Below are positions 18,175 to 22,383 of a stretch of DNA of 34,018 bases, piece by piece. Source of the stretch: a virus; IMG/VR virus record IMGVR_UViG_3300013285_000045, positions 1 to 34,018 of that record, one strand, 5' to 3'. The notes beneath the pieces are model-generated. The model ran no database searches, was not told the DNA's origin, and worked only from the letters and a program-made list of their open reading frames with translations. Position 1 is the first letter of the stretch, and each line of letters opens with the position of its first letter. A program made the translations under genes and the position numbers.

Positions 18175-18196
18175 CGTTTCTCTCCACGCGCACCCG

Positions 18197-18421
18197 CTCA
18201 CGTGTCGGTCACCATACGGCAGGCGTGAGGGACATCCGGTACTGTGGGAAAGCTCTGAGACACCGGACAGGCTGGCGAAGCTAGCGGCCTGGGGCGAACG
18301 GCTCGCGGGCATGTGCGGCTCCGTCCAGCATGTAGAAGGCTAGTCCTCTTTACCTGAGGAGGGCTAGGCTTTGCTCACCATCCAGCATAGGTGATAAGGG
18401 AATAGATGTAAGGGACTAGCC
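18197..18421 (+). other. Hairpin-rich non-coding stretch before the methylase
   Basis: Four further local stems: CTCACG/CGTGAG with inner TGTCG/CGGCA (18197-18229); TCCGGT/ACCGGA (18235-18267); CAG-GCTGGC-GAA-GCTAGC-GGC-CTG (18268-18291); and CTAG-TCCTC/GAGGA-GGG-CTAG (18340-18367). The last competes with a perfect 9-bp long-range pairing, GGCTAGTCC (18338-18346) with GGACTAGCC (18413-18421). No ribosome site and no protein-like frame were found. It could be a structured RNA or the leader of the methylase mRNA. Confidence 0.45.
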
Positions 18422-18447
18422 CAGTTAGCCCTCCCATATCATTTTCA

Positions 18448-18474
18448 AACCATAGACGTATATGGTTATCCACA
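18448..18474. promoter_or_regulatory. Dyad overlapping a consensus DnaA box
   Basis: AACCATA-GACGTA-TATGGTT (18448-18467) is a perfect 7-bp inverted repeat. Its right arm overlaps TTATCCACA (18466-18474), identical to the bacterial DnaA-box consensus. It lies 22 nt before the methylase GTG. A replication or regulatory role is possible; a single box can occur by chance. Confidence 0.4.
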
Positions 18475-18484
18475 CAATTGTCAA
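18457..18484 (-). promoter_or_regulatory. Possible antisense promoter
   Basis: The minus strand reads TTGACA (18484-18479), 16 nt, then TATACG (18462-18457). A transcript from here would run leftward, antisense to the hairpin-rich region. The -10 matches only four of six consensus positions. Confidence 0.25.
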
Positions 18485-18495
18485 CAGGGGAAAAA

Positions 18496-19326
18496 GTGAA
18501 TGAGTTACATCTATTCGCGGGCGCTGGTGGAGGCATCCTCGGCGGGCAATTACTCGGACACCGATGTGTCTGTGCCGTTGAGTGGGATTCCTACGCGCAA
18601 TCCGTGCTTGTGGCACGACAAAACGATGGATGTTTCCCGCCTTTTCCGATTTGGGATGACGTGCAAACCTTTGACGGAAAACCTTGGCGCGGAATTGTTG
18701 ACATCGTGGCTGGCGGGTTTCCATGCCAGGACATCAGCGTGGCTGGAAAAGGCGCAGGAATCACCGGAGAGCGTAGCGGAATGTGGAAGCACATGGCGCG
18801 CATCGTTGGCGAGGTTCGACCCCGATTCGTGTTCGTGGAAAACAGCCCAGCAATCATTACTCGAGGACTCGGAGTTGTCCTCGGTGACTTGGCCGCGCTC
18901 GGGTATGACTGTCGCTGGACAGTGCTGGGAGCTGCCGATGTTGGGGCGCCGCACCAGAGAGACAGAATTTGGATTCTTGCCCACTCCCGTAGCAATGGAT
19001 GCAGGCTCGGGAAGATTCAATACGTCAATCGGCGGGACGCCGCGCCCGACGCTGGCATTGATGGCGAGGAAGCAACTTTGGCCGACACCGCAGGCGAGGG
19101 ATTATCGCAACGGGGACAAACCGGACAGCCTCAGAGCGATACGCAAACGCCAGCAGGGATGGTCGCCAAATTTGAACGATCTGGTGATGTGGCCGACGCC
19201 AACGGCTCAGGACGCCAAGAACAACGGCTCAGCATCGCAGATGAACAGGAATTCACTGCCGCTAAACGCAGCAGTTGGTGGGCAGTTGAACCCCAACTGG
19301 GTAGAAAAGTTGATGGGCTGGCCTGA
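18496..19326 (+). CDS. Cytosine-C5 DNA methyltransferase, C-terminus lost
   Basis: 276 aa from GTG 18496, preceded by AGGGG at 5 nt. Motif I is HLFAGAGGG (residues 5-13). Motif IV with the catalytic Cys is GGFPCQDIS (Cys77). Motif VI is VENSP (114-118). Motif VIII is HQRDRIWILA (153-162). After that the variable region has ADT-like repeats and WWAVEPQLGRKVDGLA, then stops at TGA 19324-19326, exactly where family members continue into motifs IX-X. A motif X segment (IGNGQVP) is found ~480 bp downstream in another frame, beyond an HNH gene. Role: methylates host-like cytosine sites in phage DNA to evade restriction. Without motif X it may be inactive unless the downstream part is joined. Confidence 0.85.
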   Translation: MNELHLFAGAGGGILGGQLLGHRCVCAVEWDSYAQSVLVARQNDGCFPPFPIWDDVQTFDGKPWRGIVDIVAGGFPCQDISVAGKGAGITGERSGMWKHMARIVGEVRPRFVFVENSPAIITRGLGVVLGDLAALGYDCRWTVLGAADVGAPHQRDRIWILAHSRSNGCRLGKIQYVNRRDAAPDAGIDGEEATLADTAGEGLSQRGQTGQPQSDTQTPAGMVAKFERSGDVADANGSGRQEQRLSIADEQEFTAAKRSSWWAVEPQLGRKVDGLA

Positions 19327-19900
19327 CGATTGGACATCAATGCAACCCATAAGCCATGTTAAAATGTGCTTTTGGCTTATGGGCATGCACAATGGAACGG
19401 AAACCGGAAGAAGCGAAGTTCTGCGAATCTTGCGGAACGGAGATGCTGCGCAAGAGATTCAACGGGAGATTGGAAGACCTGTCGGTGTTCATGAAGCGGC
19501 GCTTCTGCTCGCTGAGTTGTGCGAACACGCGAACCGACCTGACGAAGCACGGGTATTCATGGCGTGCGCGAAAGCACTTGGCGAAGAAATGCGAGGCGTG
19601 TGGCTACGCGAGGGCACTACAGGCGCACCACATCGACCAGGACAAGACGCACAACGAGCCGGAGAACATCCAGACGCTATGCAAACACTGTCACGACTTC
19701 TGGCACACCACGGGCAAGCGTATTGGCAGGACGGTCGCTGGGAGGATGCCACGCCTCGAGTGGCTCATGGGGTGGCCCATCGGTCACACCGACTTAAGTG
19801 TATTGGCAACGGACAAGTCCCCCTCTGTGCCGCAACAGCATGGAGATTGTTAATTGATGACCTACGCGCAAGCCCGACGCATCCTCAATGCCGCCCGTGA
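18500..19900 (+). CDS. Overlapping PTP-repeat protein in methylase +1 frame
   Basis: 466 codons from ATG 18500, 4 nt after the methylase GTG, open through the entire methylase gene and beyond. The first ~280 residues resemble a recurrent phage protein I recall, starting MSYIYSRALVEA and containing SCSWKTAQQSLLEDSE, VTWPRSGM, three PTP motifs (FLPTPVAMDA, LWPTPQARDY, MWPTPTAQDA) and LNPNWVEKLMGWP. Past ~residue 285 the frame crosses the HNH gene out of frame and then encodes the methylase motif X (RLKCIGNGQVP, AATAWRLL). The conserved phrases mirror conserved methylase motifs one base off, so this may be a real overprinted gene or a conserved shadow; sequence alone does not decide. Confidence 0.45.
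   Translation: MSYIYSRALVEASSAGNYSDTDVSVPLSGIPTRNPCLWHDKTMDVSRLFRFGMTCKPLTENLGAELLTSWLAGFHARTSAWLEKAQESPESVAECGSTWRASLARFDPDSCSWKTAQQSLLEDSELSSVTWPRSGMTVAGQCWELPMLGRRTRETEFGFLPTPVAMDAGSGRFNTSIGGTPRPTLALMARKQLWPTPQARDYRNGDKPDSLRAIRKRQQGWSPNLNDLVMWPTPTAQDAKNNGSASQMNRNSLPLNAAVGGQLNPNWVEKLMGWPDDWTSMQPISHVKMCFWLMGMHNGTETGRSEVLRILRNGDAAQEIQREIGRPVGVHEAALLLAELCEHANRPDEARVFMACAKALGEEMRGVWLREGTTGAPHRPGQDAQRAGEHPDAMQTLSRLLAHHGQAYWQDGRWEDATPRVAHGVAHRSHRLKCIGNGQVPLCAATAWRLLIDDLRASPTHPQCRP
19346..19383 (+). other. 11-bp inverted repeat at left edge of HNH insert
   Basis: CCCATAAGCCA (19346-19356) and TGGCTTATGGG (19373-19383) are perfectly complementary around a 16-nt loop that contains TAAAAT and an AAA/TTT pair. 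The ATG of the HNH gene follows 8 nt later. It could control HNH translation or mark the insertion end. Confidence 0.6.
19392..19853 (+). CDS. HNH homing-type endonuclease inserted in methylase
   Basis: 153 aa from ATG 19392; an in-frame ATG at 19356 lies inside the inverted repeat. An N-terminal Cys cluster (FCESCG, RRFCSLSC) is followed by the HNH core KKCEACGYARALQAHHIDQD and NIQTLCKHCHDFWH, with Cys67, Cys70, Cys97 and Cys100 as zinc ligands and His79-His80 in the active site. After ~residue 118 the sequence changes to RLEWLMGWPIGHTDLS, which is the C-terminus expected of the PTP-repeat frame, so the HNH ORF is fused to displaced host-gene sequence. No clear ribosome site is present. Typical role: cleaves alleles lacking the insertion to spread itself. 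Confidence 0.82.
   Translation: MERKPEEAKFCESCGTEMLRKRFNGRLEDLSVFMKRRFCSLSCANTRTDLTKHGYSWRARKHLAKKCEACGYARALQAHHIDQDKTHNEPENIQTLCKHCHDFWHTTGKRIGRTVAGRMPRLEWLMGWPIGHTDLSVLATDKSPSVPQQHGDC
19760..19900 (+). pseudogene. Displaced methylase C-terminal fragment (motif X)
   Basis: In the frame starting at 19760 the DNA encodes VAHGVAHRSHRLK, then CIGNGQVP and AATAWRLLIDD, the standard end of Dcm-type enzymes. The methylase ORF upstream ends with VDGLA-stop, homologous to the VAHGVA start of this fragment. The offset between equivalent ATG/GGG bases (19313 and 19767) is 454 nt, that is 3n+1. It could be expressed only through the overlapping 466-codon frame, by frameshift, bypass or RNA joining. Confidence 0.65.
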
Positions 19901-20042
19901 GGGTCAGGATGTCTCCATTCGTTCCATCACCTTCGCGTTGATCGAGTCCGGAGACATTGACGCGAAAAAAAGATCACCAGACTACTTGACTCATCATCTA
20001 ATCACTATGTATAGTGATGGCTCCTGCAACCAACCGGAGTAA
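19857..20042 (+). CDS. Small early hypothetical protein
   Basis: 61 aa from ATG 19857, 3 nt after the HNH stop and overlapping the end of the 466-codon frame. The product starts MTYAQARRILNAAREGQDVS and has an ITFALIESGDIDAKKR segment, helical and soluble. I recall no function. A sigma70-like promoter for downstream genes lies within its 3' end. Confidence 0.58.
   Translation: MTYAQARRILNAAREGQDVSIRSITFALIESGDIDAKKRSPDYLTHHLITMYSDGSCNQPE
19986..20015 (+). promoter_or_regulatory. Sigma70-like promoter for recombination genes
   Basis: TTGACT (19986-19991), 18-nt spacer, then TATAGT (20010-20015) preceded by TG. The dyad TCACTAT-GT-ATAGTGA (20002-20017) covers the -10, so a repressor could act here. 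The next gene starts at 20046. Confidence 0.5.
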
Positions 20043-20045
20043 AAA

Positions 20046-20273
20046 ATGAGACTGTGCATCGACTGTCGGCATCACAAGCATGATGCCGCTAACCCCGAGT
20101 ACGACAGGTGTGGCAACCCTGACGTTCGTGTGATTGATCTTGTGAGAGGGCAACACTCCATGCCTTACGCAAAGATCACCCGAATGCAAACGCAGCCATG
20201 CGGCCCATCTGGATCGTTATTCGACTACGACCCAGGTTCTTCACCAGTCATTGAGGAGGATTTCTATGTCTGA
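20046..20273 (+). CDS. Cys-rich small phage protein
   Basis: 75 aa, ATG 20046 with CCGGAG upstream. The start LCIDCRHHKHD and later Cys residues (DRCGNP, TQPCGPSG) give four to five Cys plus His that could bind zinc. I recall similar proteins (a CRDC-type start and a CGPxGxLF end) in many early regions; function unknown. It overlaps the exonuclease gene by 8 nt. Confidence 0.68.
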   Translation: MRLCIDCRHHKHDAANPEYDRCGNPDVRVIDLVRGQHSMPYAKITRMQTQPCGPSGSLFDYDPGSSPVIEEDFYV

Positions 20274-21153
20274 TTTCAGCCCAGAAGTCCGTAACTCCGC
20301 CTGGTGGAGTTCAGACAGTCGCAAAGCCGCCAACGGCAAGGCATCAGAATCGATCCTGACAAAGCTTGGAATGATGCCCATTCCAGACTTGAGCGGCATC
20401 GAGGCCGTGCAGATGGGTCACGTTATGGAACCCGTGATTCTTGAACTGGCTGCGAAGAAGCTGGGTTGCGAAGTTAAGAAGATTGACCATGCCATGTCGC
20501 ACCCGAAAGAACTGTGGCTGAAGTCTCATTTCGACGGGGTGACCCCGATGAACGAGCTTGTTGAGGCTAAAAATTACAACGCCAGCGTCAGGCACAAGTT
20601 CGACGCCGATACGGGGATGATGCCCCCCGCTGATCTGGCCCAATGCGTCCACGAAGCTACTGTGTTCGGAACGGATACCGTTTATCTAGCCGTCTTGTTC
20701 GGAGGCCAGGAGTTCGTGATGATCAAGGTGAACGTCACCGAACAGATGAAAGAAAGCCACATAAAAGATATGGCGGTTCACTGGGCAAAGGTTGTGAATA
20801 AGACCATACCAGACCCCTCATCTGTTGAAGAGGCTAGGCTGATATTCCCGGCTGCTCAGACGGGACTCAAAGTGGCTACAAACAAGTCGGAACGGTATTG
20901 CCAAGATCTCAAAGCAATTAAGCACCAGATCAAGCTGCTGGAAAGTCAGGAAGAGATCCTCCAGACTGCCTTGATGACAGAAATGGGTGACGCAGAAAGT
21001 CTTGTTGATGTTGGAGGTTCTGCGCTCGTGACTTGGAAGAATGCAAAGTCCAGTATGCGGTTTGACTCTAAGTTGTTCGAGCAGACGATGCCGGACACTT
21101 ATAAGAAGTTTGTCTACGAGGTTCCAGGATCGCGCAGGTTTTTGGTGAAGTAA
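20266..21153 (+). CDS. YqaJ/lambda-exonuclease-like recombination nuclease
   Basis: 295 aa from ATG 20266 with GAGGAGG upstream; an ATG-less extension to 20251 is rejected. The PD-(D/E)XK layout is visible: Glu55 in MGHVMEPVI, Asp90 in SHFDGV, Glu100-x-Lys102 in LVEAKNYN, then a Gln in DLAQCVHEA. The C-terminal third (about 200-260) is a coiled coil. Role: resects double-stranded ends 5' to 3' and hands the strand to the annealing protein encoded two genes downstream. The pairing of this nuclease with a RecT-like gene is a classic phage recombination module. Confidence 0.82.
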   Translation: MSDFSPEVRNSAWWSSDSRKAANGKASESILTKLGMMPIPDLSGIEAVQMGHVMEPVILELAAKKLGCEVKKIDHAMSHPKELWLKSHFDGVTPMNELVEAKNYNASVRHKFDADTGMMPPADLAQCVHEATVFGTDTVYLAVLFGGQEFVMIKVNVTEQMKESHIKDMAVHWAKVVNKTIPDPSSVEEARLIFPAAQTGLKVATNKSERYCQDLKAIKHQIKLLESQEEILQTALMTEMGDAESLVDVGGSALVTWKNAKSSMRFDSKLFEQTMPDTYKKFVYEVPGSRRFLVK

Positions 21154-21166
21154 AAAAGGAGCAAAA

Positions 21167-21343
21167 GTGAAGATTGTTTATTCATTACAAGATGTGAAGA
21201 ATCTGCTGCGTCTGGCGGCAGATGAAGATCATCATCTGATATTTGAAAAGGTAGAGATGAGCGGGTACGGTCAAAATATTGAGTTTACTCTTTCGGTTCT
21301 TGAAAACCATAAGGAGGACGAAGATGGATCAGCACCCACTTAA
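21167..21343 (+). CDS. Small ORF in recombination operon
   Basis: 58 aa found by manual reading, GTG 21167 with AAGGAG at 5 nt, TAA 21341-21343. The product (MKIVYSLQDVKNLLRLAADE, then EKVEMSGYGQNIEFTLSVLE) is acidic and helical-beta. It overlaps the next gene by 20 nt. No family is recognised. Confidence 0.6.
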   Translation: MKIVYSLQDVKNLLRLAADEDHHLIFEKVEMSGYGQNIEFTLSVLENHKEDEDGSAPT

Positions 21344-21551
21344 GTTCGCTTTTCAGAAGTGTTTTTTTCTGCGCGGGGTGACGTATCTTCCGCACTACGT
21401 CAAAGACGTGTTTGTCGGGCCTGGCTGGTCACACAAGACCGGATCAGGCGACAACGTAACGTATCACCCCAACATTTATACCGAGCAGCGTCTTATTGAC
21501 GCTGGTGCGGAACGGTCAGAAATGTATCTTTGGGAGAGAAAGCATGGCTAA
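21324..21551 (+). CDS. Small hypothetical protein before RecT
   Basis: 75 aa from ATG 21324 with AAGGAGG at 7 nt; a start at 21279 lies inside the previous gene and lacks a site. The product is rich in aromatic and basic residues (FAFQKCFFLRGVTYLPHYVK). It overlaps the RecT-like gene by 8 nt. Function unknown. Confidence 0.58.
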   Translation: MDQHPLKFAFQKCFFLRGVTYLPHYVKDVFVGPGWSHKTGSGDNVTYHPNIYTEQRLIDAGAERSEMYLWERKHG

Positions 21552-22383
21552 TGAACTTGTTCCTTTCGGCGACATTGAGCGCATGGCTGTTGCTGTTGCT
21601 AAGAGTGGCCTTTTTGGCATCAAGACCGCAGAGCAGGGTGTCGCCCTGATGTTGATTGCACAGGCTGAAGGTCTTCATCCGGCGATTGCTGCGCGTGATT
21701 ACCATGTGATCCAAGGTCGTCCTGCGTTGAAAGCAGATGCGATGCTTGCGCGATTTCAGAGCGCAGGAGGTAGGGTGAACTGGGTGAGCTACACCGACGA
21801 TGAGGTGACGGGGAAGTTCTCTCACCCACAAGGCGGCGAGGTCAGCATCAGTTGGACGATCGATATGGCTAAAAATGCTGGTTTGGCTGGCAAGGACAAT
21901 TGGAAGAATTTTCCACGCGCCATGCTACGCGCACGGTGCATCTCAGAGGGAATCCGCACAGTGTTCCCAGGCTGCGTTGTCGGCACTTACACGCCGGAAG
22001 AGGTGCAGGACTTTGACACTTCCCACAAACCCCATCAGAAGGATATGGGTCCAGTCGAGGTAGTGATTGAGTCCACCAACAATCAAGAAGGTGCGCTGCC
22101 GCTGTTTGTGCCAGGCGCAGAAGAGGCGTATGCGGCCTACTCAAACAAAGGAGAGTGGATGGAAGCCTACCTGAACATGGTTGGCAAGATCTGCGCGGCT
22201 CAGAAGCTGAATTCTCTTCAGAAGCGCGAGAAGGTGCAGGGACTTTGGGACATAAACAAAGAGTTTCTGGACTCACTTACAAGCCTCGAGAAAACTCGCA
22301 TGAGGGCTGCAATCGTTGAACTGGGGGGTACGGCAGAGGTAAAGCCAGAAGCCGCCCCAGACGAAGCAGCAGCACCGTTTTGA
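21544..22383 (+). CDS. recT: RecT-family single-strand annealing protein
   Basis: 279 aa from ATG 21544. The conserved core is visible: ALMLIAQAEGLHPAIAARDY, QGRPALKADAMLARFQ, then KNFPRAMLRARCISEGIRTV and VVGTYTPEEVQDF. These blocks match the RecT family as I know it. The C-terminus (after ~200) is divergent, ending Ala/Pro/Glu-rich. Role: anneals complementary single strands made by the upstream nuclease, for recombination and concatemer formation. Confidence 0.85.
   Translation: MANELVPFGDIERMAVAVAKSGLFGIKTAEQGVALMLIAQAEGLHPAIAARDYHVIQGRPALKADAMLARFQSAGGRVNWVSYTDDEVTGKFSHPQGGEVSISWTIDMAKNAGLAGKDNWKNFPRAMLRARCISEGIRTVFPGCVVGTYTPEEVQDFDTSHKPHQKDMGPVEVVIESTNNQEGALPLFVPGAEEAYAAYSNKGEWMEAYLNMVGKICAAQKLNSLQKREKVQGLWDINKEFLDSLTSLEKTRMRAAIVELGGTAEVKPEAAPDEAAAPF

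Follow-up and report, generated by a model that had tools for sequence, protein, structure and literature searches.

Organization of the methyltransferase locus

The window analyzed here, a stretch of 34,018 bases from the IMG/VR virus record IMGVR_UViG_3300013285_000045, carries two overlapping genes for a C5-cytosine methyltransferase (C5-MTase), which we call alpha and beta, and an HNH endonuclease gene nested within beta. The features of the locus are listed below, each with the evidence used to call it.

18496..19326, plus strand: alpha, C5-cytosine methyltransferase polypeptide with motifs I-VIII only (PF00145, phrog_363, M.HhaI)
18500..19900, plus strand: beta-linker-X, 466-aa open reading frame (ORF) shifted +1 relative to alpha (ORF reading, phrog_1008)
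18974..19285, plus strand: target-recognition-like region (TRD) of beta, with PTP repeats (Paenibacillus phage similarity)
19286..19324, plus strand: putative motif IX in the beta frame (LNPNWVEKLMGWP), left copy of a duplicated segment (conservation among mode-B relatives, defined below)
19325..19756, plus strand: linker, the beta-frame translation of the insertion joining IX to X (stop-free frame)
19346..19383, plus strand: hairpin directly 5' of the probable HNH start (CCCATAAGCCA...TGGCTTATGGG) (pairing conservation)
19392..19853, plus strand: HNH endonuclease gene, read in a frame alternate to the linker; its longest ORF spans 19356-19853 (Pfam, phrog_1271)
19757..19900, plus strand: motif X segment (RVAHGVAHRSHRLKCIGNGQVPLCAATAWRLL) in the beta frame (pN/pS)
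19764..19853, plus strand: right copy of the duplicated segment, left over from the former 3' end of beta (LMGWPIGHTDLS...) and read in the HNH frame (decay)

Alpha matches Pfam PF00145 (6e-34) and phrog_363 (1e-60), and its match to M.HhaI (2e-18) spans motifs I-VIII. As the initial annotation had read it, the frame stops after VDGLA at TGA 19324-19326. The beta ATG at 18500 lies 4 nt 3' of the presumed alpha start, GTG 18496, which was assigned from the twin-start pattern GTGAATG (18496-18502); the same 4-base spacing is found in 111 of 143 distinct relatives. Twin starts 4 nt apart could allow two overlapping proteins to be made from one ribosome binding region. Directly 5' of the gene pair, positions 18195-18310 match the Rfam family RF02932 (Betaproteobacteria-1 sRNA, 85.7 bits), which hints at a host among the Betaproteobacteria and agrees with a related locus on a Burkholderiales MAG (L290).

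Beta is the ORF that had been named PTP and described as ending at LMGWPDDWT. We find instead that it crosses the HNH gene without a stop and runs on into motif X. Residues 65-318 match phrog_1008 ('DNA methyltransferase', 2e-37), and its middle part shares 40% identity with Paenibacillus phage cytosine methyltransferase ORFs, one of them annotated as BsuM subunit YdiP. The pattern L-N-P..W-V-E..M-G (LNPxWVExLMGWP) is invariant in beta of the mode-B relatives. That this segment is motif IX is suggested by precedent and by a profile search, in which it weakly matched (E 0.52) a stretch resembling motif IX in a DNA methyltransferase. The full beta-X alignment, used as a profile against the PDB, gave no relevant match, leaving beta without a solved relative, and Foldseek returned no match to a model of the TRD-IX-linker-X part at E<=0.001. 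As AlphaFold modeled this part at a pLDDT of 45, with the linker helices alone at 70-80, we make no structural claim.

A 3n+1 insertion separates motif X from alpha

The arrangement before insertion can be read from uninterrupted relatives. In about 100 distinct loci of this kind, the distance from the LNP codons of motif IX to GNGQVP is exactly 65 nt and motif X lies in the alpha frame. Among 100 distinct uninterrupted loci, alpha is open in 99 and beta is open from motif IV to IX in 99, while the third frame contains 8.3 stops on average. Judged from these sequences, the ancestral partition is motifs I-VIII and X on alpha and motif IX on beta, like that of M.EcoHK31I. One uninterrupted locus (L081) is an exception to the open alpha frame, with an alpha stop between motifs VIII and IX and motif X still in the alpha frame.

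In the window, the same distance is 519 nt, yielding an insert of 454 nt (3x151+1) and confirming the offset first proposed from this one sequence. Motif X (VAHGVAHR...IGNGQVP...AATAWRLL) is found about 450 nt past the alpha stop, beyond the HNH gene and shifted by one frame as had been noticed, so that it is out of the alpha frame and in that of beta. The analysis likewise supports the proposal that a single 3n+1 HNH insertion accounts for both displacements, that of motif X from alpha and that of the old beta tail. Motifs I-VIII are thereby left on alpha and IX-X on beta, with the assignment of motif IX following the weak profile match.

The reported repetition of the LMGWP/VDGLA segment is also borne out: LMGWP occurs at 19310 in the beta frame and again 454 nt on, at 19764, in the HNH frame. 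The left copy is diverged (EKLMGWPDDWT compared with the usual EWLMGWPxGWT), and the match to the empty site picks up again at the right border, at TCGAGTGGCTCATGGGG. Because the left copy differs and homology resumes on the right, about 35 bases are present twice, as two diverged copies. The old beta tail had been described as fused to the HNH C-terminus. This holds for the window, where the TAG that ends the HNH gene in most relatives is replaced by TGG (19761-19763). Elsewhere in the main clade it holds only for L001/L218, and it does not extend to most relatives.

The linker frame is kept open

The beta frame of the linker has no stop in any of the 37 embedded loci with a window-type HNH gene (family 1), whereas the third frame has 162. 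Free-standing relatives of the window HNH gene carry 1-20 stops each in the equivalent frame. A linker stop is created wherever AA, AG or GA follows an HNH codon with T in third position. All 448 NNY codons at such risky positions in the 37 loci have C as their third base and not one has T, compared with 748 C and 686 T elsewhere; in a second HNH family, described below, risky codons number 224 with C and 2 with T. When synonymous codons are permuted, a locus is expected to have 2.5-8 linker stops on average. With no stop in this second frame of the HNH gene, beta reads straight into motif X.

The amino acid sequence of the linker itself looks like a tolerated spacer without clear constraint. 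Its pN/pS is 1.22, near the 1.28 of the third frame, with 0.21 for the HNH frame, and a permutation test showed modest extra amino acid conservation, partly shared by the third frame. We therefore rejected the linker as a functional domain; matches to TPR were also set aside as below the cut-off. Motif X, by comparison, has a pN/pS of 0.39 in rearranged and 0.38 in uninterrupted loci. The frame of the old beta tail has decayed, with a total of 21 stops in 21 rearranged loci but a single one in 40 uninterrupted loci.

These observations bear on two alternative readings. In one, the methyltransferase is inactivated and decaying, and the linker is open by accident or is kept open only for the HNH gene. 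Alpha does lack motif X, and activity of the enzyme is something that we infer. However, the expected linker stops are missing from all 37 loci, motif X is conserved at the rate of uninterrupted loci, and loci that have lost the HNH gene retain beta-X. Methylation may have been lost in single loci, which would then be decaying relics, but the conserved motif X argues against this overall, and we regard general decay as improbable. In the other, translation would begin inside the linker and yield motif X as a small polypeptide of its own. ATG codons do occur in the linker frame and the mobE and mobA insertions of T4-type phages yield separate polypeptides (PMC2988022). Yet stops are avoided along the full length of the linker, more than an internal start would call for, and this reading appears slightly less probable still.

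Recurrence, a second HNH family and scars

An alignment-based scan recovered the window-type HNH from about 40 viral loci, and also from two MAG contigs of bacteria (Burkholderiales, Spirochaetes); as loci are partly related, these and the following counts do not equal independent events. Wherever motif X was found in HNH-bearing family-1 loci, it lies within an open ORF. Two modes can be distinguished. In mode A the insert is 3n long and motif X is in the alpha ORF, as shown for 14 of 16 loci, the remaining 2 having no recognisable motif IV. In mode B the insert is 3n+1 long and motif X is in the beta ORF, which applies to 21 family-1 loci including the window; in all 20 other main-family mode-B loci, beta is open through HNH into X. 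The HNH tree requires the mode to switch at least 4 times, with well-supported branches forcing 2 of these switches.

Searching with the beta-X segment of one HNH-less locus (L202) uncovered a second, unrelated HNH family at the same site, whose zinc-ribbon-like cysteine set is C-terminal rather than N-terminal as in the window family. Each of its 13 loci has a 3n+1 insert that places motif X in the frame of beta, and 12 have a stop-free beta-X ORF. The single beta-linker stop of the remaining locus (L376/L302) could be a sequencing error or a recent inactivation.

Four further loci have no HNH gene and carry a 3n+1 scar (L202, 361 nt; L309, 217 nt; L385, 175 nt; L311, 139 nt) with the beta-X ORF kept. 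Alpha stops 241-433 nt before motif IX in the first three, while in L311 the alpha end is not assessable. Altogether, the beta-joined loci comprise the window, 20 family-1 loci, L296, 13 second-family loci and these 4 scars, and all inserts computed are 3n+1. No insert, whether in the beta-joined (3n+1) or the alpha-joined (3n) loci, leaves motif X in the third frame. In one further case (L220/L006), an indel after motif IV fuses the alpha and beta frames so that IV and X share one ORF, which is either an assembly error or a real fusion.

The initial annotation had proposed that joining of products by bypass, frameshifting or splicing would restore both original proteins. Programmed +1 frameshifting or bypass would join alpha to the linker and X in a single-chain methyltransferase. 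The X frame is indeed the +1 frame of alpha, the alpha/beta overlap reaches the alpha stop, and GCC TGA and CCC-C are present in the window. Against this, the context of the alpha stop varies between loci (GCC TGA, GCC TAA, GGT TGA, GAT TGA, ACT TAA, CCA TGA), alpha stops 100-433 nt before motif IX in L232, several second-family loci and three scars, and we saw no slip motif common to the loci, while beta is already continuous with X. As the alpha stop has neither a conserved place nor a conserved context, we disfavour frameshifting and consider it highly unlikely; translational bypass of the T4 gene 60 type is likewise unsupported, with motif X in a continuous ORF and no conserved take-off context. 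What the loci show instead is that X joins beta, and that the rearranged organization persists where the HNH gene is absent, an observation that the initial annotation itself had named as one that would refute its proposal. A self-splicing intron or intein-like element, whose removal would restore alpha-X and the beta tail, is the least credible reading: although group I introns typically harbor nested endonucleases, positions 18400-20100 gave no Rfam match at E<=1, group I introns included, almost all loci have a host frame that is open across the insert, and the old beta tail is stop-rich in rearranged loci while alpha decays upstream in several.

The HNH gene as a putative homing element

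The HNH ORF matches Pfam HNH (7e-5) and phrog_1271 (6e-11) and has a conserved set of Cys, His and Asn residues. Because several relatives carry stops between the two candidate ATGs, the gene probably starts at ATG 19392. In the hairpin directly upstream, 92% of pair cells are kept across 15 distinct sequences, compared with 24-50% when the pairing is slid, and two pairs show compensatory changes, although covariation is only modest. In T4-type endonuclease genes, hairpins hide the ribosome binding site of the endonuclease (PMC2988022). No sigma-70 promoter match was found near the HNH gene in the window. By eye, near-consensus sigma-70 sites are visible inside the insertion, upstream of HNH, in two relatives (L016, TTGACA-17-TATATT; L017, TTGACC-18-TATTAT).

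Within the main clade, identity to the window is 77-94% for HNH and 41-77% for the methyltransferase, and the nearest methyltransferases (up to 86%) have no HNH gene. A patchily distributed HNH gene that is less diverged than its host fits homing, and the conserved residues together with the low pN/pS are suggestive of a homing endonuclease cleaving the empty allele. Directly 3' of the locus, a recombination module (20251-22383) adjoins the mobile element, consisting of a RecE-like/YqaJ exonuclease (phrog_434) and an ORF that looks RecT-like by eye from its translation.

Proposed mechanism

We consider it very probable that the HNH insertion moved motif X to beta, giving an enzyme made of alpha (I-VIII) and beta (TRD-IX-linker-X) with no joining of products. 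A homing-type HNH element would have inserted into the overlapping gene pair at the motif-IX segment of beta, the cut site in the uninterrupted allele being predicted near GTCGAGTGGCTCATGGGG. Given a 3n+1 insert, motif X would fall into the beta frame, and a stop-free alternate frame of HNH would let beta be translated through. The HNH protein would be expressed from its own nested ORF, probably from the internal start preceded by the hairpin. That alpha and beta then assemble into an active methylating enzyme is what we infer from the knowledge that natural and artificial splits of C5-MTases complement (PMC3404938). Further, HNH elements likely act as recurrent frame switches: through at least two unrelated families, motif X would have passed from alpha to beta independently, and the new partition would outlive the element.

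If so, a selfish gene can invade the catalytic region of an enzyme without breaking it, its second reading frame serving as a spacer, and a domain can pass between two overlapping genes. With overlaps that succeed one another, first alpha/beta and then HNH/beta, the loci replicate a single evolutionary step dozens of times in nature, and some of them have since lost the element. They also carry a warning for annotation, as standard pipelines may miss the HNH gene, beta or motif X, or call a frameshift.

Comparison with known systems

Two characterized enzymes frame the proposed change in partition. M.EcoHK31I consists of a larger polypeptide with motifs I-VIII and X and a smaller one with IX (PMC3404938); it corresponds to the uninterrupted relatives and differs from the window, where X is in beta. 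M.AquI is divided into I-VIII and IX-X (PMC3404938) and equals the window in motif partition, which is known here at the level of sequence. In the window, however, beta overlaps the greater part of alpha, and it was an HNH insertion that brought the partition about.

Insertion of an HNH gene into a host gene is also seen for mobE in Aeh1 nrdA and mobA in T4 gene 60, where the host products work in pieces and hairpins sequester the ribosome binding site of the endonuclease (PMC2988022). Those elements split the host gene into separate ORFs, whereas the HNH gene of the window is nested in a continuous one.

The closest parallel is the ShiLan domain of a mycobacteriophage methylase, an in-frame insertion that hides an HNH gene in another of its frames (Genes 2025, PMC11855218), together with Pacc40 (PMC9957025). 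As in the window, the HNH gene occupies an alternate frame of an insertion that is open in the methylase frame, the distribution is patchy and there is no intron or intein signature. The window HNH itself has no mycobacteriophage match at 1e-5. The ShiLan and Pacc40 insertions are in frame with the methylase and involve no change of partner. In contrast, the insertion of the window is 3n+1, not in frame with alpha and open in the overlapping beta ORF, to whose product X passes. We found no description of an alpha-to-beta transfer of motif X in the searchable literature, outside which subscription journals mostly lie. Hidden HNH genes in phage methylases are known (ShiLan, 2025), and the transfer of motif X is, provisionally, new. 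Mode A is of the ShiLan kind, while mode B differs in that the domain passes to an overlapping second gene.
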